Source: Xanthobacter flavus
GTDB taxonomy: Bacteria; Pseudomonadota; Alphaproteobacteria; Rhizobiales; Xanthobacteraceae
Length of the DNA: 64,000 nucleotides
Assembly: GCF_017875275.1 (NCBI RefSeq)
Contig: NZ_JAGGML010000001.1
Coordinates: forward strand, 4,051,001-4,115,000
Direction of reading: 5' to 3'
Part shown: one piece after another, positions 1,792 through 51,117 of the stretch
Layout: the number at the start of each line of letters is the position of its first letter
Numbering within the stretch: position 1 is the stretch's first letter
Program-made: the position numbers and the translations under genes
The notes under the pieces: model-generated
The model's input: only the letters and a program-made list of their open reading frames with translations
Told to the model about the DNA's origin: nothing
The model's database searches: none

Positions 1792-2145
1792 TCAGCGCCC
1801 GGAGTCGGCCGGCGCAAACTGGGTGATGCCTGCGGTGTCACACACGCGCATCCGGGCGCCGAGCGGCGGCGCATCGGCGTCGTCCACCGGCACGTGCGCG
1901 AGCCGCCCGGTCAGGCGCACGCCGCAATCGAGGTCCACCACGGCCACGGCATAGGGCCCGTCCGCCTGGAAACGGGTGGGTGGGCGGCGCACCAGCGTCC
2001 AGGAGACGAGGGCGCCGTCACCCTCCACCGTGACCGGCTCCATGTCCGGGCTGTGACAGGTGGGGCAGAGTTCGCGCGGGCCTGCATCGAGCTGCCCGCA
2101 CGCGGCGCAGCGCAGGATCGCGACGGGAAGGGAAGCGGAAGACAT
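1792..2145 (-). CDS. DUF35 OB-fold protein with zinc ribbon, thiolase partner
   Basis: A 117-residue protein with the two parts of the DUF35 family. An N-terminal rubredoxin-like zinc ribbon has two CxxC pairs (CAAC at about residues 12-15 and CPTC near 26-29). A C-terminal OB-fold follows, with VSWTLVRRPP and YAVAVVDLD. The reading frame extends further upstream without a stop, but ATG at 2145 gives the normal family N-terminus. Family members bind SCP2-type thiolases and acyl-CoA; some thiolase/DUF35 pairs are aldolases rather than thiolases. It sits after the hydratase (2184-2978) and the thiolase (3017-4180) on the same strand, consistent with forming a complex with that thiolase. Confidence 0.85.
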   Translation of the reverse strand: MSSASLPVAILRCAACGQLDAGPRELCPTCHSPDMEPVTVEGDGALVSWTLVRRPPTRFQADGPYAVAVVDLDCGVRLTGRLAHVPVDDADAPPLGARMRVCDTAGITQFAPADSGR

Positions 2146-2183
2146 GGGACGGGCGTGATCCTGATGGCGGCGGACAGTGGGGC

Positions 2184-2978
<795 letters not shown>

Positions 2979-3016
2979 GGGATGTGTTCCGATTCGGTCG
3001 CGGGTGCGGCGCGCGG

Positions 3017-19068: not shown

Positions 19069-21225
19069 ATGAACATGCCGTTCATCCCGGCGACGGACGC
19101 GAAGCGCACCAAAGGTCTCGATCGTCTGCTCAACGCGAAGTCGGTGGCCATCGTCGGCATGTCCTCCAAGCCCCAGTCGGCCGGGCACATCGTGCTGAGG
19201 AACCTGCGCGAGAACGGTTTTCCCGGTGCCATCCACCTCGTGGGGCGCACCCCGGGCGTCATCGACGGCCTCACCGTGCTCACCGACATGGCCGAACTGC
19301 CGGCAGGGGTGGACCTCGCGGTGCTCACCGTGCCCGCGTCGAGCGTCGAGGCGACGTTGGACGCCTGCATGGCGCGGGATGTCGGCGCGGCGATCGTCTT
19401 CGCCTCGGGCTTCGCCGAAACGGGCGAGGAAGGGCGGCGGGAGCAGGAGCGGATCGGCGCCCGGGTGCGCGCCGGGGGCATGGTGGTGGTCGGCCCCAAC
19501 TGCCTCGGCTTCACCAATTACGCAGCCGGCTTCAGCATCACCTTCGTGGGTGTGAACAAGGTGCCGGCGATGCCGGAGGGCACGCGCGATGCCGTCGCCA
19601 TCGTGTCCCAGTCCGGCGGCCTCGCCAACCACCTGCGCCACGGACTGAATTCCCGCGGCGTCGCGGTGGCCTACAACATCTCCACCGGCAACGAGATGGA
19701 CCTCGGCCTCGGCGATTTCGTCGACCATCTGGTGGACGATGCGGCGACGCGCGTCATCATGATCTATGCCGAGGACATCCGGCGGCCGGACCTGTTCCTC
19801 GCCGCCGCCGCCCGCGCCCACGCCGTGGGCAAGCCGCTGGTGATGCTGTTTCCCGGCCGCAGCCCCCGGGCGCAGGAGGCGGCCAAGTCGCACACCGGCG
19901 CGCTGGCGGGCGACTATGCCGTGATGAAGGCCATGGTGGAGCGCGCCGGCGTCCATCTGGTCGAGACACTCGACGAATTCATGGATGTGGCGGAGGTTCT
20001 CTCGCGCTATCCGGCGCCGTCCCGCGGCGGCCTCGGCATCCTCACCTTCTCCGGCGCCTTCTGCGGCATCGCGCACGATTTCTGCGCCGATATCGGGGTG
20101 GAGATCCCAGCCCTCTCTGCGGCCACCGAAAGCGAGCTGAAGTCCCTGCTGCCGGCGTTCATCTCGCCCAAGAATCCCATCGATCTCGGCACCGAGGCCG
20201 TGTGGCGGCCGGAGCTGGTCGGCGCGGGCGTCGCCGCTTTGCTCAAGGAGCCGGCCATCGGGGCCGTCGCCATTTCCATTCCCATCGTCTCGCCAGCCCA
20301 CGCCAAGGCCTATGTGGAGCAGGTGGTGAAGGCGCGGGGCGACAGCGTGAAGCCCGTGGCCATGGCCATGCTCGGCGACCAGCTGCCCCTGCCGCCGGAA
20401 TTCGTCGAGATCGCCCGCGCCGGCAAGGTGATCGTCTCGCGCTCCTCCGATCGCGTCCTGAAGGCGCTGGCGCGGATCGTCCGGCAGCCGGACGTGACGA
20501 CGCCGGCACCTGCCACACGGTCGTCCACGCCGCTTCGCGACCTGCCCAAGGGCACGCTGCCCAAGGGTACGCTGCCGGAGTGGCTCGGCAAGAGCGTGCT
20601 CGAAGCAGAGGGCATCCGCATTCCCGGCGGCCGTCTTGTGCGCACCCTCGACGAGGCGCTCTCGGCAGCGGAAGGCATCGGCTACCCGGTCGTCATCAAG
20701 GCGCAGGCGGGCGCGCTGGCCCACAAGACGGAAGCGGGCGGCGTCATCCTCAACCTCGCCGATGCCGATGCGCTCGCCGCCGCCTGGTCCACGCTCAACG
20801 CGAACATCGCCCGCGCCCAGCCCGGCCTCGTGCTGGACGGGGTGCTGGTGGAGAAGATGTCCGCCAAGGGGCTGGAACTGGTGGTGGGCGGCCGGCGTGA
20901 TCCGCGCTGGGGGCCGGTGGTGCTCATCGGCCTCGGCGGCATCATGGTGGAGGCTCTGGGCGACGTGCGCCTTGTGGCGGCCGATGCCAGCCGCGCGGAG
21001 TTCGTCGCCGAGTTCGGCCGGCTGAAGGCGTCCAAGATGCTCTACGGCTTCCGCAACCTGCCGCCGGTGGACGTGGAAGCCGCAGCCGACGTGGCGGTGG
21101 CGATCGGCCGCCTGCTGCAGGCGACGCCCGAGATCACCGACGTCGAGATCAATCCGCTCATGGTCTACGAGCGCGGCCGAGGTGCCGTCGCCCTCGATGC
21201 CCTGATCGTCAGCACCGGCAGCTGA
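19069..21225 (+). CDS. Acyl-CoA synthetase (ADP-forming), NDP-forming CoA ligase
   Basis: A 718-residue single-chain ADP-forming ligase converting an acid, ATP and CoA into acyl-CoA, ADP and phosphate. Domain order is CoA-binding Rossmann domain (residues about 15-145, KSVAIVGMSSKPQSAG), CoA-ligase domain with the phosphohistidine loop (H275 in KSHTGALAGDY), then a C-terminal ATP-grasp domain from about residue 500 (GYPVVIKAQAGALAHKTEAGG). The linker before the ATP-grasp part holds a tandem repeat of PKGTL. ATG at 19069 is preceded by GGAGGAAAC; the longer frame upstream lacks homology. It starts the operon with an enoyl-CoA hydratase and a NitT-type binding protein. Confidence 0.93.
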   Translation: MNMPFIPATDAKRTKGLDRLLNAKSVAIVGMSSKPQSAGHIVLRNLRENGFPGAIHLVGRTPGVIDGLTVLTDMAELPAGVDLAVLTVPASSVEATLDACMARDVGAAIVFASGFAETGEEGRREQERIGARVRAGGMVVVGPNCLGFTNYAAGFSITFVGVNKVPAMPEGTRDAVAIVSQSGGLANHLRHGLNSRGVAVAYNISTGNEMDLGLGDFVDHLVDDAATRVIMIYAEDIRRPDLFLAAAARAHAVGKPLVMLFPGRSPRAQEAAKSHTGALAGDYAVMKAMVERAGVHLVETLDEFMDVAEVLSRYPAPSRGGLGILTFSGAFCGIAHDFCADIGVEIPALSAATESELKSLLPAFISPKNPIDLGTEAVWRPELVGAGVAALLKEPAIGAVAISIPIVSPAHAKAYVEQVVKARGDSVKPVAMAMLGDQLPLPPEFVEIARAGKVIVSRSSDRVLKALARIVRQPDVTTPAPATRSSTPLRDLPKGTLPKGTLPEWLGKSVLEAEGIRIPGGRLVRTLDEALSAAEGIGYPVVIKAQAGALAHKTEAGGVILNLADADALAAAWSTLNANIARAQPGLVLDGVLVEKMSAKGLELVVGGRRDPRWGPVVLIGLGGIMVEALGDVRLVAADASRAEFVAEFGRLKASKMLYGFRNLPPVDVEAAADVAVAIGRLLQATPEITDVEINPLMVYERGRGAVALDALIVSTGS
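20542..20571 (+). repeat. Two tandem 15-bp units inside the acyl-CoA synthetase gene
   Basis: CTGCCCAAGGGCACG is followed immediately by CTGCCCAAGGGTACG, with a third partial copy, CTGCCG. It encodes the linker sequence LPKGT twice and keeps frame. It sits between the CoA-ligase and ATP-grasp domains, where length changes would be tolerated. Confidence 0.8.
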
Positions 21226-21277: not shown

Positions 21278-22063
21278 ATGCCCGCGCTCGTGACCTACGA
21301 GGTCGAGGACAATATCGCGCTGATCGGCCTCAACCGGCCGGACAAGCGCAATGCCATGAATGACGCGCTGCTGATGGAGCTGCGCGACGTGCTGAACGAC
21401 GCCGGTGACAAGATCGACGCCGCCGTGCTCTTCGGCCACGGGCAGAACTTCTCGGCCGGGCTCGATCTCGCCGAACTGTCGAAGCGTCTCACGCCCGAGG
21501 GGCAGGCGCCCCGCAAGCGCAGGCCGCGCCATCTGTGGCATTCCACGTTCGACCTGCTTGCGCGGGGCAACTTCCCGGTGGTCTGCGCGCTCCATGGCGC
21601 CACCATCGGCGGCGGGCTGGAGCTTGCCTCCGCGGCTCACATCCGTGTGGCCGACGAGACCACCTTCTTCGGCCTGCCGGAAGGCCAGCGCGGCATCTTC
21701 GTGGGTGGCGGCGGCAGCGTGCGCACCCAGCGCATCATCGGCTATCCCATGATGGCCGACATGATGCTGACCGGGCGCCTCCTCACCGCCGAGGAGGGTA
21801 GCCGCTGCGGCCTCGCGCAATATGTGGTGCCGGCCGGTGAAGCGTTCGCCAAGGCGAAGGCGCTGGCGCGGGTGATCGCCTCCAACGTGCCCCAGACCAA
21901 CTGGATGATCACCAACGTCCTGCCGCGCATCAACGACCTGTCGCATGACGACGGGCTGTTCATGGAATATCTCAACACGTCCATGACGCGGCCGCCCGAG
22001 GCCCTCAAGCGCCTCGAAGACTTTCTGGAAAAGCGCGCGCCGGCCTTGGCCCGGCCCGAGTAG
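21278..22063 (+). CDS. Enoyl-CoA hydratase/isomerase (crotonase family)
   Basis: A 261-residue crotonase-fold protein. Oxyanion-hole regions are FSAGLDLAEL and ATIGGGLELASAA, and the catalytic Glu region reads FFGLPEGQRGIFVGGGGSVR. GGAG lies six bases before the ATG at 21278, and the gene follows the acyl-CoA synthetase by 52 bases. It probably hydrates the enoyl-CoA produced by the dehydrogenase pair at 27607-29792. That route is inferred from the shared promoter element and gene neighbourhood. Isomerase activity is equally possible. Confidence 0.92.
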   Translation: MPALVTYEVEDNIALIGLNRPDKRNAMNDALLMELRDVLNDAGDKIDAAVLFGHGQNFSAGLDLAELSKRLTPEGQAPRKRRPRHLWHSTFDLLARGNFPVVCALHGATIGGGLELASAAHIRVADETTFFGLPEGQRGIFVGGGGSVRTQRIIGYPMMADMMLTGRLLTAEEGSRCGLAQYVVPAGEAFAKAKALARVIASNVPQTNWMITNVLPRINDLSHDDGLFMEYLNTSMTRPPEALKRLEDFLEKRAPALARPE

Positions 22064-22108: not shown

Positions 22109-23107
22109 ATGGGCCATTTCGTCGATCGGCGGACACTCCTTCGGGCCGGCCTCGGCGCCGGCGCGGGCGCAATGGCGGGCTTCCCGTTGCGGGCCGCCCG
22201 GGCGCAGGGCGATGCGGTGCGCTGGGCCTATCTGGTGCCCGGCTTCACCGTGCTCATCGCCCGCTACATGCAGCAGAAGAAGCTCGGTGACGCGCCGGGC
22301 GTCGGCCTTGCCGCACCCAGCGAATACGCCACGGTTTCCACTTATTACAACGATTTCGCCGCCGGCAATTACGATGTCTGCATCGGCAGCTGGGATGTGT
22401 TCGCCCAGCGCTTCGAGGCCGGCGTGCCGATCCGCATGCTGTGCACCATCACCACCGCGAGCATGATCTCCATCCTCACCGGGGAGCCCTCCATCAAGGG
22501 CATCCCGGACCTGAAGGGCAAGACGCTGGCGGCGCCGCAGTCCACCGGCACGTTCCGCATGGTGTCGAGCCTCATCAAGGAGCGCTACAGCCTGGAACTG
22601 GGGCGCGACATCAACATCCAGGGCGTGGACAATCCCGCGTCGTCCATGACCATGGTTCTCGCCAACCGGGCGGATGCGGGGCTCTCGTGGGAGCCGAACA
22701 TCAGTTCGGCGATGGCGCGGCGCAAGGACCTGTCGCTGATTTTCAACGCCGGAAATGCCTATCGCGACATCAGCGGCGGCGGGGAGCTGCCCTATTTCGG
22801 CATCGCGGTGCGGCGCGAGCTTGCGGAACGTGATCCGGAGCGGGTGCGCCGTATCCGCGCGGCGTTCGAGGCCGCCATCAACGGCATCATCGCCGATCCC
22901 AAGGAAGCCGTGAGCCTCGTCGCGGATTCGGCCGGGGCGCCGGCCCCGGTGCTGCTCGATGCGCTCACCTCAAAGCGGCTCAGCTTCCGCTTCGGCTCCA
23001 TGGCCTCGGCGGAGGAGCGCGCCCAGATGACGAAGGCCGGCGAGTTCCTGAAGCGGAACGGGCTGCTCAAGCAGTCCATCGATCCCGGCTTCTTCATAGC
23101 GTCCTGA
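22109..23107 (+). CDS. NitT/TauT-type ABC transporter substrate-binding protein
   Basis: A 332-residue type II periplasmic binding protein of the SsuA/NMT1 group. The N-terminus has a twin-arginine-like signal (DRRTLLRAGLGAGAGA, then a cleavage region RAARAQ near residue 33). Body motifs are YYNDFAAGNYDVCIGSWDVF and DLKGKTLAAPQSTGTFRM. CAGGGAGGAC precedes the ATG. The last 14 bases overlap the end of the convergent LysR gene. Its permease and ATPase are not adjacent but lie beyond that LysR gene (24285-25906), so the transporter is split across two transcription units linked by a shared promoter element. Confidence 0.92.
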   Translation: MGHFVDRRTLLRAGLGAGAGAMAGFPLRAARAQGDAVRWAYLVPGFTVLIARYMQQKKLGDAPGVGLAAPSEYATVSTYYNDFAAGNYDVCIGSWDVFAQRFEAGVPIRMLCTITTASMISILTGEPSIKGIPDLKGKTLAAPQSTGTFRMVSSLIKERYSLELGRDINIQGVDNPASSMTMVLANRADAGLSWEPNISSAMARRKDLSLIFNAGNAYRDISGGGELPYFGIAVRRELAERDPERVRRIRAAFEAAINGIIADPKEAVSLVADSAGAPAPVLLDALTSKRLSFRFGSMASAEERAQMTKAGEFLKRNGLLKQSIDPGFFIAS

Positions 23108-24065
23108 GGCGGGGCGGGTCCTTGCGCGCGTCGCCCGCCGGGCGGCGGCGCACGGGCTCGCCCTGCTCACGCCGGTCGAGCCGCGCCGGCCCGTCGGCGG
23201 CCAGAAATGCCTCCACGTGGTCGAGGAACACGCGGGTGCGCTGCGGCACGTGGCGGCCCGCGAAATAGGTCGCCGTCGCCTGCAGCGCGGGGATTTCCTC
23301 CTGCATGTCCAGCCGCACGAGGCGGCCGTTGGCGACGTCGCCACGGCACATCACATTGGGAAGCACGCCCGCCCCGAGGCCCGCAATCACCAGCTCGCGT
23401 GCGACGCCGATATTGTTGACGCGGACCGTGCCGTGCCGGTCCGCCTCGCCCCGCGCCTCCTCCCGCCAGATGCCTTCCGCCACCTGCTGCTCGGTGAGCA
23501 CGCCCTTCACGTCGGCGAGCCGGCGGGGGGGTGAAGCGAGCCGGGCCAGGTACTTCGGGCTGGCATAGATGCCGCGCGTGAGCGCCGTCAGCCGCCGCGC
23601 CGGCACGCCCGGATTGACATGGCTGCCGAGCTGGATGGCGATGTCGTAGGTCTCCTCCGTCACATCCACCCACCGGCCGTTGACGTGCACGTCGAGGTCG
23701 ATCATCGCGTATGTCTCGGCGAAGGACGCGATGGCGCTGCTGATCCAGCCAGTCCCGAAATCGATGGGCATGCTCACCCTGAGCTTGCCGCGCAGGCTCG
23801 TGCGCCGCTGGGTGGTCTGCAGCCCCGCGCTCTCCAGCTCCGCGGCGATGCGGGAGCAATGATCGTGCAGCCGGCGCCCCTCGTCGGTGACCAGAATGCG
23901 CCGGCTGGTGCGCTTGAGCAGCGCCGCGCCGACCTGATCTTCCAGATGCTTGATTTTCCGGCTGACCGTCGACTTGGGCTGGCCAAGTAACCGCGCAGCT
24001 CGAGTAATGTTTTCCTGGTTGACCACCTCGAAGAACACCACCAGCGCGTTAAGGTCGAAGTTCAT
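23094..24065 (-). CDS. LysR family transcriptional regulator
   Basis: A 323-residue LysR regulator of the CrgA/DsdC-like group. The N-terminal HTH is at residues 5-65 (LVVFFEVVNQENITRAARLLGQPKSTVSRKI in two parts), then RGKLRVSMPIDFG and a substrate-binding fold. ATG at 24065 is chosen because GGAGG lies five bases upstream; in-frame starts at 24086 and 24095 lack this. The C-terminal tail is Arg-rich and overlaps the convergent binding-protein gene. A conserved 27-bp element lies 27-53 bases upstream of its start and recurs before the operon at 19069, suggesting that this protein controls itself, the permease/ATPase genes and the synthetase operon. Confidence 0.92.
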   Translation of the reverse strand: MNFDLNALVVFFEVVNQENITRAARLLGQPKSTVSRKIKHLEDQVGAALLKRTSRRILVTDEGRRLHDHCSRIAAELESAGLQTTQRRTSLRGKLRVSMPIDFGTGWISSAIASFAETYAMIDLDVHVNGRWVDVTEETYDIAIQLGSHVNPGVPARRLTALTRGIYASPKYLARLASPPRRLADVKGVLTEQQVAEGIWREEARGEADRHGTVRVNNIGVARELVIAGLGAGVLPNVMCRGDVANGRLVRLDMQEEIPALQATATYFAGRHVPQRTRVFLDHVEAFLAADGPARLDRREQGEPVRRRPAGDARKDPPRLRTL

Positions 24066-24091
24066 CTCTTCCTCCCGGTTCGACATTTCTA

Positions 24092-24118
24092 GCATCGTCC
24101 CAATTTTGGAACAACGCG
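24092..24118 (+). promoter_or_regulatory. Shared 27-bp element, copy 2 (candidate LysR box)
   Basis: Same element as at 18921-18947: GCAT-GTC, core CAATTTTGGAAC, then CGCG, with four mismatches between copies. Here the dyad CCAA-TT-TTGG is complete inside TCCCAATTTTGGA (T-N11-A). It lies just upstream of the LysR start and about 170 bases before the permease gene, the expected place for LysR autoregulation and divergent activation. Confidence 0.6.
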
Positions 24119-24284: not shown

Positions 24285-25112
24285 ATGAGCGAAAACCTTG
24301 TTGCGACAGGGCGGCCGCCCCTGCGGCCGGCGCCCGCCCGCAAGGCTTCGAGGCGCGGCTCGGGACAAAGCGACGTGGTGGCGACGCTGGTCGTGGTCGC
24401 GGCCATGGTCATCGCGATGCAGATCGCCAGCAGCCACGTTCCCGATTACATCATGCCCTCGCCCATGAGCGTGCTGAACGCCACGGGCGACATCCTCTTC
24501 GGCGACCGCATGCACGTGCTGGTGACGCTGGCGCGCCTCGCCGCGGCGCTGGCCTTCTCGCTGGTCGCGGGGGTGATCGTGGGGGCCATTATGGGCATGG
24601 TCCCGCTGGTGCGCCCCTTCCTGCGCGCGATCATCGTGATCGACACCGGCATTCCGGCGCTGTCCTGGATGCTCATCGCGGTGTTCTGGTTCAAGGACAC
24701 CGAGACGCGGATCTTCTTCATCCTCACGGTGATCCTGCTGCCGTTCTACGCCATGAACGTCTACGAGGGCATCCGCGCGCTGCCCAAGGATCTGGTGGAC
24801 ATGGTGGAGAGCTTCCGCCCGAGCCGCTGGCAGATGCTGCGCTACATGATCATGCCGCACATTGTCCCCTACATCTTCATCACCACCAAGTCGGTCGTCG
24901 GCTATGCCATCCGCATGGCGGTGTTCGCTGAACTCGTCGCCTCGGCCATCGGCATCGGCTCGCGCATGAGCCTTGCCCAGTCGAGCTTCCGCATCGATCA
25001 GGTGTTCGCCTGGACCTTCCTGCTCGTCATCCTCAACATCGCCTTGCAGTGGGGCGTCTCGGCCATCGAGAAGCTGTTCCTGAAGTGGCGGCCGGAAGTG
25101 GCGGTGCGGTGA
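24285..25112 (+). CDS. NitT/TauT-type ABC transporter permease
   Basis: A 275-residue inner-membrane permease of the SsuC/TauC type. About six hydrophobic segments follow a basic N-terminus. The EAA loop is at about residues 160-190 (MVESFRPSRWQMLRYMIMPHIVPY). ATG at 24285 is preferred over the GTG at 24243 because a GGGAGGAAAAGG tract is six bases upstream. The stop overlaps the next ATG (TGATG), coupling it to the ATPase. It pairs with the binding protein at 22109. Confidence 0.93.
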   Translation: MSENLVATGRPPLRPAPARKASRRGSGQSDVVATLVVVAAMVIAMQIASSHVPDYIMPSPMSVLNATGDILFGDRMHVLVTLARLAAALAFSLVAGVIVGAIMGMVPLVRPFLRAIIVIDTGIPALSWMLIAVFWFKDTETRIFFILTVILLPFYAMNVYEGIRALPKDLVDMVESFRPSRWQMLRYMIMPHIVPYIFITTKSVVGYAIRMAVFAELVASAIGIGSRMSLAQSSFRIDQVFAWTFLLVILNIALQWGVSAIEKLFLKWRPEVAVR

Positions 25113-25906
25113 TGGGCACGATCGATCCGGTCATCGAGATCCGCAACATCCACAAGAGCTTCGGCGGCTTCGTCGCGGTGGATGACTTCAGCCTGCGCGT
25201 GGAGCCCGGCGAGATCGTCGCGCTTTTGGGACGCACCGGGGCCGGCAAGAGCACCGTGCTCAATCTGGTGATGGGCACCATCGGGCCGGACCAGGGCACG
25301 ATCCGCGTCGCCGGTTTCGACCCTTATGCGCAGTTCCGCGAGCTGAAGGGGCGCATCGCCGTTTCCTTCCAGACGGACAGGCTGCTGCCCTGGCGCACGG
25401 CGGTGGAGAATGCCGAACTCGGCCTCCTCATTCTCGGTGTGCCGAAGGCGGAAGCCCGCACGCGGGCGCTGGCCTGGCTGGAGCGGGTGAATCTCAAGGG
25501 CGCGCAGGACAAGTATGTCCACGAACTGTCGGGAGGCATGCGCCAGCGCGTCTCGCTGGCCCGCGCGCTGGCGGTGGACCCGGCCATCGTGTTCCTCGAC
25601 GAATCCTTCAGCCAGCTCGACCATGCGACGGCGGGCAAGCTGCGGCGCGATTTCCATCGCATCGCCAAGGAGTTCGGGAAGACCTGCCTGTTCGTGACCC
25701 ACCGCATCGAGGATGCGATCGAGATCGCGGACCGGGCCATCGTGCTCAATCCGGGCGCGCGCATCGTGCTGACGGAAGAGATCACGCCCGATTTGCGCGC
25801 CGACCCGTCCCGCGTGCGCGCCTGCCACGCCCGCATCGCCGAGGCCATGGGCGGCGAGGGCGAGGCGGACGATGAGGAAGATGCCGCCCCCGTCATCGCC
25901 GGCTGA
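25112..25906 (+). CDS. NitT/TauT-type ABC transporter ATPase
   Basis: A 264-residue ATPase. Walker A is GRTGAGKST near residues 37-45, the Q-loop is VSFQTDRLLPWRTAVEN, the signature is ELSGGMRQRVSLARAL, Walker B is IVFLDESFSQLD and the H-loop is THRIEDAI. The C-terminus is acidic (GEGEADDEEDAAP), which is unusual but harmless. It is translationally coupled to the permease. The following thiolase-like gene starts 105 bases later in the same direction, with a hairpin between, so the importer and the catabolic genes may be one transcript. Confidence 0.94.
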   Translation: MGTIDPVIEIRNIHKSFGGFVAVDDFSLRVEPGEIVALLGRTGAGKSTVLNLVMGTIGPDQGTIRVAGFDPYAQFRELKGRIAVSFQTDRLLPWRTAVENAELGLLILGVPKAEARTRALAWLERVNLKGAQDKYVHELSGGMRQRVSLARALAVDPAIVFLDESFSQLDHATAGKLRRDFHRIAKEFGKTCLFVTHRIEDAIEIADRAIVLNPGARIVLTEEITPDLRADPSRVRACHARIAEAMGGEGEADDEEDAAPVIAG

Positions 25907-26011: not shown

Positions 26012-27178
26012 ATGGCACGGACAGACGTGGTCATCGCCGGCTATGCCGAGACCAAGGTGGTCTACCAGAGCGGCCGGTCCGCCTATGATTTCGCCGGCCT
26101 TGCCTTGAGCGACCTGCTTGAGAAGAGCGGCATCGGGAAGGACGAGATAGACGGCCTCTCGGTGACGCTGGCGCTGAGCGAGGGCACCAATCCCTTCTTC
26201 GCCGTCTACATGGCGGATGCGCTCGGGCTGACCCCCACATGGCTTAACGCAGGCGGCATCGGCGGCTGCTCGGCGGCGGGCGGGGTCGCGCGGGCCATGT
26301 GGGCCATCCGCGAGGGTGCGTGCCGCATCGCGGTGGTCCTCTCCGCCGATGCGCCGAGCACCGCCTTCCGGGCGAACTACGGCGCCTACCGCCCGGAGTT
26401 TCAGGATCCGCAGGGCGTGCAGGGGCCACCGGCCACCTTCGGGCTGCTGATGAGCCGCTACGATCATCAGTATGGGCTCGATCCCCGCGCGCTGGGCAAG
26501 ATCGCGATCACCCAGCGAGAGCACGCGCTGCGCAATCCCAACGCCCTCGACAAATTCCGCAAGCCGCTGACGATGGACGATTATCTGGCGTCCCGATCGA
26601 TCGCCGATCCGCTGCGCGTGCTCGACTGCGTGATGTATTGCGATGGCGCCAACGCCTTCCTCGTGATGAGCGAAGAGGAGGCCCGGACCCGCGGCATCGA
26701 GAAGGTCGCTTATCCCACCGCCTATTCCGAGGTCACCAACCATAACGGCGCCGATCCGCTGGCCGATATCACCGAGAGCGGCTTCTACCGCATCGCGCCG
26801 AAGGTGTTCGCCAAGGCGGGCCTCACCCCCGCCGGCATCGGCATGTTCCAGCCCTATGACGACTTCACCATCGCCGTGCTGATGCAGCTGGAGGCGTTCG
26901 GCTTCTGCGGCACGGGCGAGGGCTCGGCCTTCGTGCGCGACACCGATCTCTCCTTCAGCGGAACCCTGCCGCTGAACACCGGCGGCGGCCAGATCTCGGC
27001 CGGCCAACCGGGGCTCGGCAGCGGAGGGCTGAACCTTGCCGAGGCGGTGCGGCAGCTCTTCGGCGAGGGGGGCGACCGGCAGGTGCCCGGGGTGCGCAAC
27101 GCGCTGGTCACGGGCATCGGCGTCATCCCCTACGGCCGCAACTGGGGTTGCAGCGCCGCGATGATCCTGGAGGTGTGA
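26012..27178 (+). CDS. Thiolase-like protein of the SCP2/Ltp2 type lacking the thiolase histidine
   Basis: A 388-residue thiolase-fold protein. The nucleophile position is present (C86 in GGIGGCSAAGG). Where thiolases have GHPxGATG, it reads AGQPGLGSGG, so Gln332 replaces the catalytic His. A QPYDDFTIAV box with Tyr282 stands where classical thiolases have NEAFA; tyrosines of this kind act in Ltp2-type aldolases. GGAGGT lies six bases before the ATG at 26012. It is followed one base later by an OB-fold protein, as in thiolase/DUF35 complexes that perform retro-aldol cleavage of steroid side-chain CoA esters. Retro-aldolase or scaffold function is therefore more likely than thiolysis, by inference. 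Confidence 0.87.
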   Translation: MARTDVVIAGYAETKVVYQSGRSAYDFAGLALSDLLEKSGIGKDEIDGLSVTLALSEGTNPFFAVYMADALGLTPTWLNAGGIGGCSAAGGVARAMWAIREGACRIAVVLSADAPSTAFRANYGAYRPEFQDPQGVQGPPATFGLLMSRYDHQYGLDPRALGKIAITQREHALRNPNALDKFRKPLTMDDYLASRSIADPLRVLDCVMYCDGANAFLVMSEEEARTRGIEKVAYPTAYSEVTNHNGADPLADITESGFYRIAPKVFAKAGLTPAGIGMFQPYDDFTIAVLMQLEAFGFCGTGEGSAFVRDTDLSFSGTLPLNTGGGQISAGQPGLGSGGLNLAEAVRQLFGEGGDRQVPGVRNALVTGIGVIPYGRNWGCSAAMILEV

Positions 27179-27179
27179 G

Positions 27180-27620
27180 ATGGCCGAAACCGAAGCACGG
27201 CCCGTGCCGGCCGCCAACCGCTACGTGCCCTCGCAGCCGTTCTGGGATGGCGCGCGGGAAGGGCGGCTGATGCTGCAGATGTGTCTCGATACGGGCCGTT
27301 TCCAGCATCCGCCCCATCCGCTCAGCGTCTACACCGGCAGCCAGAATGTCGCGTGGCGGCAGGTGAGCGGCCTGGGCACGATCTACGCCGTGACGGTTGT
27401 GCGCGTGCCGGGGCCTGGCCTTGCCGGCCGGCTGCCGCTGACCGTGGCCACGGTGGAACTGGCCGAGGGCGTCCGTCTCATCGCCAACATCATCGACAGT
27501 CCGCCCGAGCGCGTGGGCATCGGAGCCGCCGTGGAGCTGGCGTGGGACCCTCTCGCCGACGGCACGCCCTATCCCGCCTTCCGGACGCTGGCGCAGGGGG
27601 CGGCCGATGCTCAGGATTGA
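27180..27620 (+). CDS. DUF35-type OB-fold protein with degenerate zinc ribbon
   Basis: A 146-residue protein with the DUF35 architecture: N-terminal helix (SQPFWDGAREGRLMLQ), ribbon region, then an OB-fold (VSGLGTIYAVTVVR, GVRLIANI). Only one of the four zinc-ribbon cysteines is left (C35 in QMCLDTGRFQHPPHP); the second pair is absent, so zinc binding is doubtful. It begins one base after the thiolase-like stop, with GGAGGTG as its ribosome site, and overlaps the next gene by 14 bases. It is probably the obligate partner of the thiolase-like protein, providing the acyl-CoA binding face. Confidence 0.84.
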   Translation: MAETEARPVPAANRYVPSQPFWDGAREGRLMLQMCLDTGRFQHPPHPLSVYTGSQNVAWRQVSGLGTIYAVTVVRVPGPGLAGRLPLTVATVELAEGVRLIANIIDSPPERVGIGAAVELAWDPLADGTPYPAFRTLAQGAADAQD

Positions 27621-28761
27621 GAGCGAGGCGGAGCAGGCGTTCCGCCGCGAGGTGCGCGACTGGTACGCGGCCGAGCTTCCCGAAGAATTGCGCGACCTCA
27701 CTTTTCGGCCCGAGCCGGCGCGGGCGCTCGGCTGGTATCGCCGCCTGTCGCAGCGGGGATGGATCGCGCCCCACTGGCCGAAGACTTTCGGCGGCATGGG
27801 CGCCTCGCCGGTGGAGCAGGTGATCCTGATGGAGGAGGCCGCGCGCATCGGCGCGCCGGAGCTGCCGACCCAGGGGCTCAACCAGATCGGCCCGATCCTC
27901 CAGCGCTTCGGTACGCCCGAGCAGCAGGCGCGGCACCTGCCGGCGATCCTCAACGGGGATGTCATCTGGTGCCAGGGCTATTCCGAGCCCGGCGCGGGTT
28001 CCGATCTCGCCTCGCTGAGAACGCGTGGGCGCGTGGAAGATGACGAGATCGTCGTCACCGGCCACAAGATCTGGACCACATGGGGCCACCATGCGGACTG
28101 GATCTATGCCCTCGTGCGCACCAACGAGACCTTGCCCCGCCGGCAGGGCATCACCTTTCTCCTCATCGATCTGACATCGCCCGGCATCACCCGCCGCCCC
28201 ATCCGCACCCTCGCCGACGAAAACGAGTTCTGTGAGGTGTTCTTTGATGAGGTTCGCGTGCCCCGCGCGAACGTGGTGGGTCCGCTCGACGGCGGCTGGT
28301 CCATCGTGACCGCCCTTCTCGACGAGGAACGCATCCAACTCGGCGCGCCCTCTCACGCCCTGCGCGCGCTGGAGCGCGTGCGCCGCATGGCGCGGGCGCT
28401 GGGGCCGGCGCTGGGGGAAGCCGGGCATCTCATGGTGGCGGAGGCAGAGATGGAGGTGGCGGCGCTCACCGCGGCCTTTCTCCAGATCCTGACGGGCGTG
28501 GCCAGTGGCAAGGCGGGCGATCCCTCTGGCCTCAAGATCCTCTCCACCGAGACCACCCAGCGGGTGCTCGACATCGCCCAGGAGCTGGCCGGCTCCGCCG
28601 CATCGCTGAAGCTGCCCGAGCAGGTCGCGGGCGCGGTGATCGACTTCAGCGAGCTGTTCCTCCAGTCCCGCCGCCTGTCCATCTATGGCGGCACCAACGA
28701 GATCCAGCGCGGGCTCATCGCGGACCGCGTGCTGAAACTTCCAAAGGGAAAGCGGCCATGA
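27607..28761 (+). CDS. Acyl-CoA dehydrogenase, large subunit-like
   Basis: A 384-residue flavoprotein of the acyl-CoA dehydrogenase fold. The FAD/substrate box is WCQGYSEPGAGSDLASLRTR at about residues 121-140, followed by GHKIWTTWGHHADW. The C-terminal SIYGGTNEIQRG has Gly where MCAD-type enzymes carry the catalytic Glu (YEGT). An acidic pair, E240-E241 in LLDEERIQ, lies about where LCAD and isovaleryl-CoA dehydrogenase place their base. It overlaps the OB-fold gene by 14 bases and the next dehydrogenase by four (ATGA). The adjacent short homologue suggests a heteromeric enzyme, as known for steroid-type dehydrogenases. Confidence 0.92.
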   Translation: MLRIESEAEQAFRREVRDWYAAELPEELRDLTFRPEPARALGWYRRLSQRGWIAPHWPKTFGGMGASPVEQVILMEEAARIGAPELPTQGLNQIGPILQRFGTPEQQARHLPAILNGDVIWCQGYSEPGAGSDLASLRTRGRVEDDEIVVTGHKIWTTWGHHADWIYALVRTNETLPRRQGITFLLIDLTSPGITRRPIRTLADENEFCEVFFDEVRVPRANVVGPLDGGWSIVTALLDEERIQLGAPSHALRALERVRRMARALGPALGEAGHLMVAEAEMEVAALTAAFLQILTGVASGKAGDPSGLKILSTETTQRVLDIAQELAGSAASLKLPEQVAGAVIDFSELFLQSRRLSIYGGTNEIQRGLIADRVLKLPKGKRP

Positions 28762-29792
28762 TCGAGCCCACGCCCGAGCAGGTTCTCATGCGGGACAGCC
28801 TGGTCCAGCTTCTCGGCGACGGGGTGGCGCGGACCCGCTCCGCCGGCGAGGCGTGGCCCCGCATCGACCGGGCCCCGTGGGCGGACATCGCCGGCGCCGG
28901 CTGGCCGGGGCTGCTCGTGCCCGAGGCCTCCGGCGGATGGGGCGGCACCGCGCTCGACATGGTGATGCTGCTCGAAGGCGCGGCCGCGACGCTGGCGCCG
29001 GAGCCGCTGCCGGCCGTTCTCGCCATCGCTCCGCTCCTTGCCGCCTGCGAAAGCGCGGCCGCCGCCGCTCTGCTGGGGCAATTGGTCAGTGGGGAGGCGA
29101 TTGTTTTGATGGCCGAATCCGGGGCCTTTCCGCTGTCGCACGAGGCGGGCTTCGTGCTGTTCGACGCGCATTGGGCCGACGAGGTCATCTGCGCAGAAGG
29201 GGAGGGGGACGCCTTCCGGCTGGTTGCAGTGCCGGCCGCGGACCTTGCGGACGCGCCGTTGCGGCGGACCATAGACGGCAGCGGGCAGCGGGTCTTTTCC
29301 CTCCCCGCGGGCGCCGGGCTCGAACTGGCGCGAGGATGCCGGGCGGAGGCGGCCTATCATAGCGCCGTCAACCGTCTGCGCCTCGGCGCTGCCGCCAGCC
29401 TGATGGGTCTCGTACGCGGGGCGCTCGCCCTCACGATCGATTATCTCGGCGTCCGAACCCAGTTCGGCCAGCCCATCGGCTCGTTCCAGGCGCTCCAGCA
29501 CCGGGCGGCGTCCCTCCATGTTGCCCATACGGCGGGATGGGCGCTGGTGTGCGAGGCCGCCCTGAGCGTCGGTGGCGAAAAAGAGGGGATCGCCTGCGCC
29601 ATGGTCAAGGCGAAGGCCTCGTCCACCGCGCGCGACGTCCTGAAGGACTGCGTGCAGATGCACGGCGCCATCGGTTTTTCGGACGAATATGCGCTCGCCC
29701 CCCTGTTCCGCCGCGCCGTGACGCTTGCCTCCGCCTTCGGTACGTCTCAGGTCTGCCTGGGGGAGATCGGCAGCCTTCCGCGGTGCGCCTGA
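28758..29792 (+). CDS. Acyl-CoA dehydrogenase, short second subunit-like
   Basis: A 344-residue acyl-CoA dehydrogenase-fold protein, shorter than the usual 380-400. It retains the C-terminal helices with YLGVRTQFGQPIGSFQALQHR and VQMHGAIGFSDEYAL, but the middle beta domain is reduced and the YxGT box is replaced by SAFGTSQ, so no catalytic Glu is visible there. Its start overlaps the stop of the previous dehydrogenase, which argues for stoichiometric synthesis. It probably supplies half of the FAD or substrate site in an alpha2beta2 enzyme, by analogy with FadE pairs. It is the last gene of the unit, convergent with opgH. Confidence 0.88.
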   Translation: MIEPTPEQVLMRDSLVQLLGDGVARTRSAGEAWPRIDRAPWADIAGAGWPGLLVPEASGGWGGTALDMVMLLEGAAATLAPEPLPAVLAIAPLLAACESAAAAALLGQLVSGEAIVLMAESGAFPLSHEAGFVLFDAHWADEVICAEGEGDAFRLVAVPAADLADAPLRRTIDGSGQRVFSLPAGAGLELARGCRAEAAYHSAVNRLRLGAAASLMGLVRGALALTIDYLGVRTQFGQPIGSFQALQHRAASLHVAHTAGWALVCEAALSVGGEKEGIACAMVKAKASSTARDVLKDCVQMHGAIGFSDEYALAPLFRRAVTLASAFGTSQVCLGEIGSLPRCA

Positions 29793-46408: not shown

Positions 46409-47272
46409 TCAACCGCAAACTGTGGCGCCAGCGCGCGGTGCGACGAACGGCTCGCAGCGTTCCAGGCTGATCCGCGTGGTCTCGGCGGCGTCGCGCGTCC
46501 ACCAGTCGAGCCTGGAGAAGATCTCGATCTCGAACGGGCCGTCGTAGGCGATGTCGTCCAGGAGACGGCGATAGAAGGCGATGTCGATCACGCCGTCGCC
46601 CACCATGCCCCGGTCCTGATAGACATCCCGCGTCGGCACCAGCCAGTCGCACAGATGGAAGGTCAGGATGCGCGCGGGTCCGGCCTCCCTCAGTCCGTCC
46701 GCGAAATCCGGATCCCACCAGCAATGATAGACATCGGCCACGATGCCCGTGCCGGCGCCCATGGTCTCGACCAGATCAAGGCAGTGGCGGAAGGTATTGA
46801 GGCAGGAGCGGTCGGCCGCGAACATGGGGTGCAGGGGTTCGAGGCCGAGGGATACGCCTGCCGCGCGGGCATGCGGCAGAAGCTCGGCGAGCGCGTCCTC
46901 CACACGGTTGCGGGCGGCGCGGATATCCTTCTCGCCGGTGGCGAGGCCGCCGGGCACCACCACGAGGCTCGTCGCGCCGAGATCGTGCGCCGCATCGAGC
47001 CGCCGGCGGTTCTCGTCGATGGCCGCCGCGCGGGCGAGGGGATCGGCGAGGTTTACCCATGCGGTCGTGCACAGGCAGGGCACGAACAGGCCCGCCTCGC
47101 GGATCAGCCGCCCGGCGACGGCGGGGGCGATGCCTTCCAGATACTGGTTCCACACGCCGATGCCCCGCGCGCCGTGGCGCGCATAGGTGTCCACCGCCTC
47201 CGCGAGGGAGAGGGAGGGGGTGGTGATCTGGTTGACGGCGAAGCGGGAGAAATCGCCGGGCACGATGCTCAT
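46409..47272 (-). CDS. Sugar-phosphate isomerase/epimerase-like TIM-barrel protein
   Basis: A 287-residue xylose-isomerase-like TIM barrel (AP endonuclease family 2). Metal-site segments are SLGLEPLHPMFAADRS, GIVADVYHCWWDPD, FHLCDWLVP and GPFEIEIFS, giving the Glu/Asp/His/Glu set of the family. The ATG at 47272 overlaps the HyuB stop (ATGA), so it is made with HyuB and HyuA. A role as an epimerase or racemase that supplies the hydantoinase with one stereoisomer, or isomerises its product, is inferred from that coupling. Sequence alone does not fix the substrate. Confidence 0.87.
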   Translation of the reverse strand: MSIVPGDFSRFAVNQITTPSLSLAEAVDTYARHGARGIGVWNQYLEGIAPAVAGRLIREAGLFVPCLCTTAWVNLADPLARAAAIDENRRRLDAAHDLGATSLVVVPGGLATGEKDIRAARNRVEDALAELLPHARAAGVSLGLEPLHPMFAADRSCLNTFRHCLDLVETMGAGTGIVADVYHCWWDPDFADGLREAGPARILTFHLCDWLVPTRDVYQDRGMVGDGVIDIAFYRRLLDDIAYDGPFEIEIFSRLDWWTRDAAETTRISLERCEPFVAPRAGATVCG

Positions 47273-49011
47273 GACGCGGTCCCCGCCATGGCGCCGCGCA
47301 GCGCGGCCGTCGCCTGCGCATCGACGGCGCCGTCCACCACCAGCACGCCGAAGCCGTCGCGGGCATAGGCGGGGCTGATCTTGCCGTCCAGCACATCCTC
47401 CAGCACGGCTTCCGGCGGGCGCGTCAGGGGATCACCATAGCCGCCGCCGCCGGCCTGCTCGTGGCGGATCACCGTTCCCTTGGTCACGTTGCGCGTGACC
47501 TTGCTGGCCAGAAGCTCGAAATTGCCGGCCTCGGACAGGAGGTTCCGCGAGAGCGCGCCCGGCTTGCCGCCGAACAGGCCGTAGGGCGCATGGGCGTAAC
47601 GGTCCGCGCGCAGCTGCATCACCGCCTCGTCGGCGAGGAGGCGGTACTGGCGGACGACCCCGAGGCCGCCCCGCGTCCTGCCGGCGCCGCAGGAATCGTC
47701 GCGCAGCGCATATTCCTCGATCATGAGCGGGTAGGTCGCCTCCATGATCTCCACCGGCATGTTCGACATGTTCTGCGAGGGGTTCGTCACCGCATCGATG
47801 CCGTCCCGCGTCGCCCGCGCGCCGAGGGCGCCGTTGATCATGTCCACCACGATGAAGGGCTCGCGCGTCTCGCTGTCGTAGCCGCCGAGGCAGACGACCG
47901 TGTTGCCGCCTTCGCCCGCCGCGCACACCCGCTCGGGCACGATGCCGGCGAGGGCGCCGAGCACGGTGTCCACCACCCGGTAGCCGGTCAGGGCGCGGGC
48001 GGCGACGGGGGCGGGGAATTCGGGATTGAGCACGCTGCCCTTCGGCGCGCTCACGTCGACGCAGCGATAGAGGCCGGCGTTGTTCGGCACATCTGGGTCG
48101 AGCACGCAGCGCACGGCGAGATAGGTGGCTGACTTGACGAAGGAGAGCGTGGAATTGATCGCGCCCTTCACCTGCGGCGCCGAGCCCTCGAAATCGACAC
48201 CGATGTGATCGCCCTTGACCGTGATGGTCACATGGATCGAAATCTCGCTCTCGTCGAAACCGTCGCCGTCGATGTAGTCGGTGAAGGAATAGGCGCCATC
48301 GGGCCAGGCGGCGAAGGCCTTGCGCACGAGGCGCTCGCCATAATCGAGGAATTCGGCGAGGAATTTTTCCACCAGCGGAATGCCGTACTTCTCGGTGAGG
48401 CGCAGGAATTCGCGCTCACCAAGGGCACAGGTGGCAAGTTGCGCCTCAAGGTCGCCGATGACCAGATCGGGCAGGCGCACGTTCTTCGAGATGATGTCGA
48501 ACAGGGTCTTGTTGCGCACGCCCTTGTCGAACAGCTTCAGGGGCGGAATGCGCAGCCCTTCCTGGAAGATCTCGGTGGAATCCGAGGCGTTGGAGCCCGG
48601 CACCCGGCCGCCCACGTCGCAATGGTGGCAGATCACCACGGCATAGCCGATGTGCTGCGCCCCGTCGAAGATGGGCTTGAACATGAAGATGTCCGGCAGG
48701 TGCATCCCGCCGTCATAGGGGTCGTTCAGGATGATGACGTCGCCGGGATTGAGGTCGTCGCCATAGTGGCGCTGGATGGCCTCCATGGCGTCCGGCACGG
48801 CACCGAGGTGCAGCGCCACGGTCTTGGCCTGGGCGAGGATGCGCCCCTGCGCGTCGCACATGGTGGCAGAATAATCCAGCACGTCGCGCACGATGGGCGA
48901 GCGGGCGGTGCGCATGACCGTGTAGGCCATGTCATCGACGATGGATTCGAACGCGCTCTTGAGCACCGCGAAGGTGACGGGATCGATGGTCTTGTCGGTC
49001 TGGTCGAGCAT
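47269..49011 (-). CDS. hyuB: Hydantoinase/oxoprolinase family protein, subunit B (HyuB)
   Basis: A 580-residue HyuB-type subunit. Family segments are VRDVLDYSATMCDAQGRILAQ, NDPYDGGMHLPDIFMFKP, CHHCDVGGRVPGS and DSCGAGRTRGGLGVVRQY. With HyuA it forms an ATP-dependent enzyme that opens cyclic amides such as hydantoins or 5-oxoproline, or in related complexes carboxylates ketones. It starts 12 bases after hyuA and is coupled to the TIM-barrel gene. The divergent ABC importer at 51280 probably brings in the substrate. Confidence 0.94.
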   Translation of the reverse strand: MLDQTDKTIDPVTFAVLKSAFESIVDDMAYTVMRTARSPIVRDVLDYSATMCDAQGRILAQAKTVALHLGAVPDAMEAIQRHYGDDLNPGDVIILNDPYDGGMHLPDIFMFKPIFDGAQHIGYAVVICHHCDVGGRVPGSNASDSTEIFQEGLRIPPLKLFDKGVRNKTLFDIISKNVRLPDLVIGDLEAQLATCALGEREFLRLTEKYGIPLVEKFLAEFLDYGERLVRKAFAAWPDGAYSFTDYIDGDGFDESEISIHVTITVKGDHIGVDFEGSAPQVKGAINSTLSFVKSATYLAVRCVLDPDVPNNAGLYRCVDVSAPKGSVLNPEFPAPVAARALTGYRVVDTVLGALAGIVPERVCAAGEGGNTVVCLGGYDSETREPFIVVDMINGALGARATRDGIDAVTNPSQNMSNMPVEIMEATYPLMIEEYALRDDSCGAGRTRGGLGVVRQYRLLADEAVMQLRADRYAHAPYGLFGGKPGALSRNLLSEAGNFELLASKVTRNVTKGTVIRHEQAGGGGYGDPLTRPPEAVLEDVLDGKISPAYARDGFGVLVVDGAVDAQATAALRGAMAGTAS

Positions 49012-49023
49012 GGCGCGATCCCG

Positions 49024-51117
49024 TCAGGCGAGGGTGATCAGGAGATTGGCGTGGGCGTCGGCTTCCGCGGTGGCGCCGGGGGGCACCACGACGGTGCTGT
49101 CCGCCCCCTCGATGACAGCGGGGCCGACGATGCGCGCCGGGCAGCGCGTGCGCACATAGACCGGCGTGTCGATGTGACCCTGCTCCGCGCCGTAATAGAC
49201 CTTGCGGATGCTTTCCGGCTCGCTCGAACCCTCCACCCGCGCATGGGCAGCCCGGAAGTCGATCTTGCCGGGCCGGAGGCCGCGCCCGATGACCCTCAGG
49301 CTCACCACCTCGATGGTGTCGGAGGAGGAGTAGCTGTAGATGGCCTCATAGGCCGCCTTGAAGGCCGCGTGCAGCGCATCCCGGTCCGCCAGATACGGCA
49401 CGGAGAGGGACATTTCCTGGCCACGGAAGCGCATGTCCACCTCGCGCGTCACACTCATCAGGTGCTCGGCCACGGCCTCGCCGGCGAGGGCGGCGCGGGC
49501 ATCGGCCTCCAGCGCGGCGAAGGCCGTCTCCGCCTCGGGCGGCTGGAAATCGGCGAGCTTCACGGCGAACGGGCGGATGAAATAGCGCTCCACATCGCCC
49601 GCCAGCATGCCCATGGCGGTGAACACGCCCGGCGAGGCCGGCACCAGCACGCGGGGCATGGAGAGGAGGCGCGCGATGTCCGCCGCATGCACCGGGCCCG
49701 AGCCGCCGATGGCGACCAGTGTGAAGTCGCGCGGATCGACGCCGCGCTCCACCGTCACCGCCCGGATGGCGCGGGCCATGTTGGCGTTCACCACGTCGCG
49801 CACGCCGCAGGCGGCATCCTCGGGGGTGAGATTGAACGGGTCGGCAAGATCGCGGGCGATGGCGGCGCGGGCCGCCTCCACCGAGAGCGCGCGGGAGCCG
49901 CCGGCGAGTTGGGCGGGCAGATAACCGAGCAAAAGGTTGGCGTCCGTCACCGTGGGCCGCGAACCGCCGCTGCCGTAGCAGGCGGGGCCGGGATCGGCGC
50001 CGGCCGAGACCGGCCCGACGCGCATCAGCCCGCCCTGGTCCACATAGGCGATGGAGCCGGCGCCGGAGCCCACCTCGGCCACGTCCACCGTGGGCACGCT
50101 CATCATGTAGCCGCCGGCCTTGATGAAGCGGCTGGGCGTGGAGATGCCGGCGCGGAACTCGTATTCGCTCACCCGCGTCAGCTCGCCATTCTGCACCAGC
50201 GAGGCGGAGGCGGTGGTGCCGCCCATGTCGAACACCACGAGATCCTTGATATCCAGCGCTTCGCCGAGGCGCGAGCCGCCCACGACACCGGCCGCCCGGC
50301 CGGACGAGATGAAGAACACCGGCTTTTCACGCGCCGTGCCGGAAGAGGCGAGGGCGCCATTGGAATTGCAGACGAGCAAGGGCGCGTCGATGCCGGCATC
50401 GGCAAGGCCGCGCTCCAGCCGCGTGAGATAGGCTTCGAGCACCGGCCGCACATAGGCGTTCACGACGGTGGTGCTGGTGCGCTCGTATTCCTTCGCCTCG
50501 GGCAGCACCGAGATGGAGCTTGTGACGCGCACCTGCGGAAAGTGCTCGGCGATGAGCGTGGCGGCGCGCTGCTCGTGGGCGGGATTGCGATAGCTGTTGA
50601 GGAAGCAGACGGCGAAGGACGAAATGCCGGCATCGACCAGTTCCTGCGCAGCTTCCAGCACCGCCGCCTCATCGAGCGGCACGAGGATGGTGCCATCGGC
50701 TGCGATGCGCTCGGCCACCTCCTTGCGATGGCGACGGGCGACGAGCGGAACCGGCTTTTCCCATTGAAGATCGAACATGGACGGGGTGCGCAGCCGGCCG
50801 ATCTCCAGTACGTCGCGAAACCCCTTGGTGGTGATAAGGCCAGTGGGCGCGCCGACCTTCTGCAGCAGCGTGTTGGAGCCGACCGTGGTGCCGTGCACCA
50901 CCTCCGTCACCTCCGCGGGCGTCAGCCGGGCATCGGCGATGATGGCGGCGACACCCTCCAGAACCGCCTCCTCGGGCGCCGCGGGGGTGGAGGCGACCTT
51001 GCGGTGGAACACCGCGCCGCGTCCATCCGCGAGCACGAGGTCCGTGAAGGTGCCGCCAATATCGACGCCGATGCGCGCGCCTGTCGAGGTGCGCTCCAGG
51101 CCGGTGAGTGTCCCCAC
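49024..51117 (-). CDS. hyuA: Hydantoinase/oxoprolinase family protein, subunit A (HyuA)
   Basis: A 697-residue HyuA-type subunit with an actin/hexokinase-like ATPase fold. The N-terminal phosphate loop is RIGVDIGGTFTDLVLADG, followed by VVHGTTVGSNTLLQK, FDMGGTTASASLV near the middle and GGSGPVHAADIARLL. The GTG start at 51117 is supported by AAGGAG seven bases upstream. It works with HyuB. The divergent 162-bp region to the ABC importer carries iteron-like repeats. Whether the pair is a hydantoinase, an oxoprolinase or an acetone/acetophenone carboxylase type cannot be decided; no gamma subunit gene is adjacent. Confidence 0.94.
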   Translation of the reverse strand: MGTLTGLERTSTGARIGVDIGGTFTDLVLADGRGAVFHRKVASTPAAPEEAVLEGVAAIIADARLTPAEVTEVVHGTTVGSNTLLQKVGAPTGLITTKGFRDVLEIGRLRTPSMFDLQWEKPVPLVARRHRKEVAERIAADGTILVPLDEAAVLEAAQELVDAGISSFAVCFLNSYRNPAHEQRAATLIAEHFPQVRVTSSISVLPEAKEYERTSTTVVNAYVRPVLEAYLTRLERGLADAGIDAPLLVCNSNGALASSGTAREKPVFFISSGRAAGVVGGSRLGEALDIKDLVVFDMGGTTASASLVQNGELTRVSEYEFRAGISTPSRFIKAGGYMMSVPTVDVAEVGSGAGSIAYVDQGGLMRVGPVSAGADPGPACYGSGGSRPTVTDANLLLGYLPAQLAGGSRALSVEAARAAIARDLADPFNLTPEDAACGVRDVVNANMARAIRAVTVERGVDPRDFTLVAIGGSGPVHAADIARLLSMPRVLVPASPGVFTAMGMLAGDVERYFIRPFAVKLADFQPPEAETAFAALEADARAALAGEAVAEHLMSVTREVDMRFRGQEMSLSVPYLADRDALHAAFKAAYEAIYSYSSSDTIEVVSLRVIGRGLRPGKIDFRAAHARVEGSSEPESIRKVYYGAEQGHIDTPVYVRTRCPARIVGPAVIEGADSTVVVPPGATAEADAHANLLITLA

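Follow-up and report, generated by a model that had tools for sequence, protein, structure and literature searches.

A candidate retro-aldol module in Xanthobacter flavus centred on a thiolase-fold protein with a Tyr-Asp motif

A stretch of 64,000 nucleotides from Xanthobacter flavus (NZ_JAGGML010000001.1, positions 4,051,001 to 4,115,000; hereafter the window), belonging to a genome that consists of a single 5.35 Mb contig, contains four consecutive genes for a thiolase-like protein, a DUF35 protein and two acyl-coenzyme A (acyl-CoA) dehydrogenases, A and B. Together with the genes upstream, they form a module whose mode of action most likely resembles that of the steroid side-chain route and includes a retro-aldol cleavage. 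By sequence, the nearest solved chain of the thiolase-like protein is the aldolase CtSal (31% identity), the nearest solved relatives of the DUF35 protein are ChsH2 and Shy DUF35, and dehydrogenase A is closest to ChsE4, which supports the retro-aldol chemistry suggested in a first-pass annotation of the same DNA and an analogy to aldolases of the Sal/Ltp2 kind and to ChsE. The thiolase-like protein is apparently an uncharacterised relative of the bile-acid enzymes. The four core features are as follows:

26012..27178, plus strand: thiolase-fold aldolase-like protein, 388 amino acids (Tyr282-Asp283-Asp284-Phe285, Gln327, Gln332, Gly85)
27180..27620, plus strand: DUF35/OB-fold partner, 146 amino acids (PF01796 and PF12172; best chains 6ok1_B and 9myr_B; Cys at one of four zinc-ligand positions, Cys35)
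27607..28761, plus strand: acyl-CoA dehydrogenase A, catalytic-type subunit, 384 amino acids (Glu241 on helix G, Pro84/Pro87; best chain 4x28_A, ChsE4, E 4.4e-55)
28758..29792, plus strand: acyl-CoA dehydrogenase B, non-catalytic-type partner subunit, 344 amino acids (matches to acyl-CoA dehydrogenase chains; no Pfam middle-domain match)

These reading frames were found overlapping or abutting, where the first-pass annotation had placed them: a gap of 1 nt separates the thiolase-like and DUF35 genes, followed by overlaps of 14 nt and 4 nt. Among named organisms, Xanthobacter sp. YC-JY1 has the closest relative of the thiolase-like protein (95%).

The thiolase-fold protein and its DUF35 partner

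CtSal-CtShy, the bile-acid side-chain aldolase of Comamonas testosteroni (PDB 9MYR), combines a thiolase fold with a DUF35 partner, as is the case here. In alignments checked against the published numbering, Tyr302, Cys304, Gln347 and Gln352 of CtSal correspond to Tyr282, Asp284, Gln327 and Gln332, and Tyr294, His296 and Tyr344 of TcLtp2 correspond to Tyr282, Asp284 and Gln332. In CtSal, according to excerpts of the Sal paper, Tyr302 and Cys304 are essential and Gly, not a nucleophilic Cys, occupies the thiolase Cys position (PMC12329534). The protein studied here shares with CtSal the Tyr base position, both Gln residues and, most likely, a Gly at the place of the thiolase Cys, but differs from it in carrying Asp284 for the essential Cys304. 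Moreover, a crotonase stands for the MaoC hydratase, the DUF35 partner lacks the CCCH zinc site, and the module has its own NitT-type importer. TcLtp2-ChsH2(DUF35) (PDB 6OK1) is alike in fold, partner type and Tyr position, whereas its His296 and Tyr344 are Asp and Gln here.

The Sal-type Y-D-C-Y signature thus reads YDDF in this protein, with Tyr kept and Cys changed to Asp, and the Sal-type Gln pair is present; the Ltp2 combination of YDHF and a second Tyr (344) is replaced by YDDF and Gln332, and the histidines of SCP2-type thiolases (HDCF, GHP) by Tyr282 and Gln332. Instead of the Cys3His1-zinc DUF35 fused to MaoC of Sal systems, the partner is free-standing and three of its ligands are gone. 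Judged by the residues that define those families, the aldolase-like protein is a member of neither Sal nor Ltp2. The phylogenetic comparison with Ltp2 suggested in the first-pass annotation placed its group next to the Sal group (support 99/97), with Ltp2 as a separate clade. IpfD, considered as closest kin, was dropped, as it reads YDAF and is distant in the tree.

The motif is constant among the relatives, which form a group of YDD[FY] thiolase-like proteins mostly from Proteobacteria. YDD[FY], Gln327 and Gln332 are kept in 32/32 close relatives chosen without motif selection (hits longer than 300 residues and above 120 bits, from 31 loci), a set that leaves more distant motifs unsampled because its loci were drawn from close matches. 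In these 32 and in a second set of 81 copies (>45% identity and >300 residues only), Tyr282 always replaces the HDCF histidine, Gln332 the GHP histidine, and Asp occupies the CtSal Cys304 position; the 81/81 for YDDF arises partly by selection, since one of the two scan patterns contains it. The three other thiolase-like proteins of the host genome have HDCF and GHP.

Two MAFFT alignments set the thiolase Cys opposite Gly85, whereas phmmer sets the Cys of BbsB opposite Cys86, with a one-residue gap; owing to this disagreement, some doubt about the register persists. Cys is found at residue 86 in 51/81 copies and in 8/32 of the other set, several of the eight being near-identical plasmid copies. 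The nucleophile position most likely corresponds to Gly85, and Cys86 is unlikely to act as the thiolase nucleophile.

These residues bear on whether the protein could be an ordinary thiolase performing thiolytic cleavage of a 3-ketoacyl-CoA (beta-ketoadipyl-CoA for the copies on 2,4-dichlorophenoxyacetic acid (2,4-D) plasmids). The fold is that of thiolases and true thiolases are close in Z, so that fold by itself cannot settle between aldolase and thiolase; relatives are annotated as 'thiolase family protein', and Cys86 adjoins the nucleophile position, or coincides with it by phmmer. However, the replacement of both histidines throughout the two sets, the probable Gly at the nucleophile position, the unconserved residue 86 and the lack of a 3-hydroxyacyl-CoA dehydrogenase gene in 79 loci (see below) make this reading unlikely. 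It is still less likely that the pair forms C–C bonds by condensation or acyl transfer, in the manner of PhlC or the HMG-CoA synthase complex. DUF35-bound thiolase-fold relatives of the condensing kind are known, namely PhlABC and the archaeal thiolase/HMG-CoA synthase (excerpts of PMC12329534), but neither an HMG-CoA synthase nor a PhlA-like partner was found among the ten module proteins scanned, to which the search was confined, the neighbours are catabolic in type, and the nucleophile position is most likely Gly.

The first-pass annotation had described a thiolase-like protein with a retained C86 and a Gln332 at the GHP histidine, and a degenerate DUF35 partner keeping one of four zinc cysteines. 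The positions and residues stand; what falls is their interpretation as unusual losses. A Cys does occur at position 86, but it was dropped as a conserved nucleophile; Gln332 equals Gln352 of CtSal, a Sal-type residue kept across close relatives; and three of the four zinc-ligand positions are non-Cys in 77/77 partners examined, so that the cysteine loss is family-wide. As the substitutions are invariant among the close relatives examined, the idea of degeneration was abandoned. A second thiolase/DUF35 pair in the window (1843-4180, minus strand) has canonical HDCF and GHP motifs and four zinc cysteines.

The two-gene acyl-CoA dehydrogenase

At the Glu position of medium-chain acyl-CoA dehydrogenase (MCAD), A reads YGGT (360-363) and B reads AFGT (326-329), so Glu is missing from the YEGT site in both, as had been annotated. 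ChsE4 itself reads GGGT at this site, not EGT. Glu241 of A, kept in 21/21 orthologues, aligns with the Glu at chain position 247 of ChsE4, which we take to be the catalytic base of that enzyme. A reading in which neither dehydrogenase has a catalytic Glu is therefore not borne out, A having Glu241 at the helix-G position. Pro84 and Pro87 of A are also kept in 21/21 orthologues, and one of these two prolines sits at the place linked to a bulky cavity. According to excerpts of PMC11153573, the base Glu is carried on helix G in the long-chain acyl-CoA dehydrogenase LCAD and the isovaleryl-CoA dehydrogenase IVD, a Pro is linked to the bulky-substrate cavity in LCAD and ChsE4, and only one subunit type is catalytic in alpha2beta2 enzymes.

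The best E-value for B was obtained with 5ol2_C, limited to residues 203-332; near full-length matches were 6wy8_A, Tcur3481 (25-340, E 1e-17), and 4x28_D, ChsE5 (27-329, E 4.7e-5). In the B of the window, both known base positions are without Glu (Leu207, AFGT), the second site being gapped in many aligned B sequences. An A with the helix-G Glu and a B without a base correspond to the ChsE type, and B resembles the non-catalytic subunit usual in such pairs. Neighbouring A and B genes, the ChsE4-aligned Glu, an A with the Pro pair and without the EGT Glu, and a B without a base are likewise features of ChsE4-ChsE5 and Tcur3483-Tcur3481; the difference is that A and B are fused in one relative of the module. 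This natural B-A fusion, on a Sphingobium baderi plasmid (L030), has 748 residues with the Glu within the A half, and gives indirect support to a joint alpha2beta2 assembly of A and B that would share FAD.

Recurrence of the module and a proposed pathway

The genes that precede the four core genes are the following:

19069..21225, plus strand: ADP-forming acyl-CoA ligase (PF13549, PF13607, PF13380)
21278..22063, plus strand: crotonase-type enoyl-CoA hydratase (PF00378; NCBIfam PRK08150 above cut-off; Glu115 and Glu135 at catalytic positions)
22109..23107, plus strand: NMT1/SsuA-type substrate-binding protein (PF09084)
23094..24095, minus strand: LysR-type regulator (PF00126, PF03466)
24285..25112, plus strand: ABC importer permease (PF00528)
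25112..25906, plus strand: ABC importer ATPase (PF00005; start picked from the open reading frame, scanned as 25118-25906)

The ADP-forming ligase and NitT-type importer of the first-pass annotation are thus present. Both Glu positions of the hydratase, which by crotonase we take to be the catalytic residues, are kept in 48/48 copies.

For the neighbourhood, the best 80 of 219 relatives in a genome scan were kept, representing 79 loci; the handles L032 and L076 denote one locus, neighbours were counted at set identity thresholds, cluster counts cover 78 of the loci, the loci are not mutually independent, and expected counts derive from the gene density of the host genome. A DUF35 gene lies near the thiolase-like gene in 77/79 loci, the hydratase in 44/79, the three importer genes together in 27/79, LysR in 26/79 (with the importer in 23/79) and both dehydrogenases in 17/79. 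Importer, hydratase, aldolase-like/DUF35 pair and both dehydrogenases occur together in 16/79 loci, in agreement with the annotated importer-linked module. An AMP-forming ligase cluster is found in 61/78 loci, and the ADP-forming ligase in 3/79 (L057, L080, L087) in addition to the window and a Bosea vestrisii plasmid (L026), on which the module extends from the ligase through dehydrogenase B at 58-89% identity.

Aldehyde dehydrogenase genes lie near the pair in 20/79 loci (6.1 expected), UbiD in 24/79 (0.8 expected) and short-chain dehydrogenase/reductase (SDR) genes in 20/78 (15.9 expected). In contrast to the 2.1 expected, no 3-hydroxyacyl-CoA dehydrogenase was found in the 79 loci with four queries, two of them identical, which recover the host genome's other genes of this type at 34-36% identity (E <=1e-25). 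Ligase, desaturation, hydration and aldehyde dehydrogenase without 3-hydroxyacyl-CoA dehydrogenase form the pattern that a retro-aldol route predicts; in the CtSal system, too, a hydratase step comes before, and the aldehyde dehydrogenase Sad acts after Sal (excerpts of PMC11321319). Five pure MaoC queries, run without a positive control, gave no match in the 79 loci, and the Shy query touched 77 loci only via its DUF35 half, thus providing no evidence of MaoC.

From the relatedness, motif conservation and gene linkage observed, we infer the reaction, the roles of Tyr and Asp, complex formation and the type of substrate. It is reasonably probable that the module is catabolic and that an imported organic acid is activated, desaturated, hydrated and then cleaved. 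The acid would be taken up by the NitT-type ABC importer and activated with CoA by the ADP-forming ligase (AMP-forming in most relatives), α,β-desaturation would be performed by the ChsE-type dehydrogenase A + B with Glu241 of A as base, and the crotonase would hydrate the product to a 3-hydroxyacyl-CoA. Cleavage would then be a retro-aldol step, instead of oxidation and thiolysis, performed by the thiolase-fold protein together with DUF35, and would release an aldehyde or ketone along with acetyl-CoA or a different short acyl-CoA. In this step, Tyr282 could be the base acting on the 3-hydroxyl, and protonation of the enolate could fall to Asp284 as acid, which lies near Gln327/Gln332 and takes the position of CtSal Cys304. 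The substrate may carry a ring, being aryl- or alicyclic-propanoate-like, and the UbiD neighbours hint at aromatic acids; in the one UbiD member scanned, VdcC was among the best NCBIfam kin, below cut-off. A steroid is disfavoured, the module having a crotonase and not a MaoC hydratase, with no search made for steroid-ring genes. The window itself encodes neither UbiD nor aldehyde dehydrogenase.

Alternatively, the pair could remove the acyl chain of a ring-hydroxylated aryl-acyl-CoA, as IpfD-IpfE do in ibuprofen degradation (pIBU218), which we would infer to be chemically still a retro-aldol reaction. IpfD-IpfE resemble the present pair in thiolase fold, DUF35 partner, CoA ligase and an IpfE likewise without most zinc cysteines, IpfDE is reported to release propionyl-CoA (excerpts of PMC9195938), and a Rieske-type cluster occurs in 7/78 loci, five 2,4-D plasmids also having Rieske genes next to the pair. 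However, the ten module proteins include nothing Rieske-like, the dehydrogenase pair and crotonase indicate side-chain chemistry, and IpfD, with YDAF and no Gln332 equivalent, stands apart in the tree, which renders this alternative improbable. On the ibuprofen plasmid (L136:5939-9557), a second, Ltp2-like (YDHF) protein lies by the ipf genes, with OB-fold, hydratase-like and CaiB genes.

Returning to side-chain retro-aldol cleavage, we propose more tentatively that the YDD[FY]/GQxG proteins may be a separate class of thiolase-fold retro-aldolases, marked by a Tyr-Asp pair and, within the YDDF branch, by a zinc-less DUF35 as partner. Coupled to crotonases, they would trim ring-bearing acids at their side chains across many Proteobacteria, and 'thiolase' would be a misnomer for them, also on 2,4-D plasmids. 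If so, a sizeable group of supposed thiolases, with 219 relatives in a single genome scan, would cleave without a 3-keto intermediate, pathway predictions would change for many bacteria and for these plasmids, and Asp in place of the essential Cys304 would represent a natural replacement within a newly described aldolase mechanism. In the accessible parts of the open-licence PubMed Central literature, neither a YDDF aldolase nor the importer-linked module was found described, and the string 'YDD' is absent from the Sal paper (PMC12329534).

Copies on 2,4-D plasmids and other neighbouring genes

A tfdA-type gene and a gene for an acyl-CoA synthetase precede the pair on pJP4, pEMT1, pEMT3 and pDB1, and likewise on a C. 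oxalaticus plasmid, which has two copies of this block. These tfdA-linked thiolase/COG1545 pairs are 55-57% identical to the present one and have YDDF/GQPG and a one-cysteine DUF35, but differ in lacking an adjoining dehydrogenase pair and in having an AMP-forming ligase and TfdA and Rieske neighbours. From its gene context, the pJP4 copy was predicted to be a beta-ketoadipyl-CoA thiolase (excerpts of PMC6449761), a prediction that the YDDF motif makes doubtful; the motif argues against thiolysis by the 2,4-D plasmid pair. The accessible portions of PMC3877037 and PMC2842291 yielded nothing on the pair. The tfdA-synthetase-YDDF block was seen at L027:9548-13604 and in L028, L029, L031 and L052.

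Other arrangements occur around some relatives. In Sulfitobacter (L054:8977-11390), the gene after that of a YDDY relative encodes an SDR protein whose N-terminus carries a DUF35 domain, and Rieske oxygenase and aldehyde dehydrogenase genes lie close by. In six alphaproteobacterial loci (L085, L086, L090, L093, L095 and L098), cluster labels indicate, downstream of the pair, UbiD, an SDR-like gene and a thiamine pyrophosphate enzyme, the domain of which was scanned in L095 alone; most of these loci have molybdopterin-oxidoreductase-like genes upstream. Elsewhere in the window, two large minus-strand reading frames at 47269-51117 resemble, by sequence impression, hydantoinase/oxoprolinase subunits, and another NMT1-like binding protein (51280-52281) is encoded near them.

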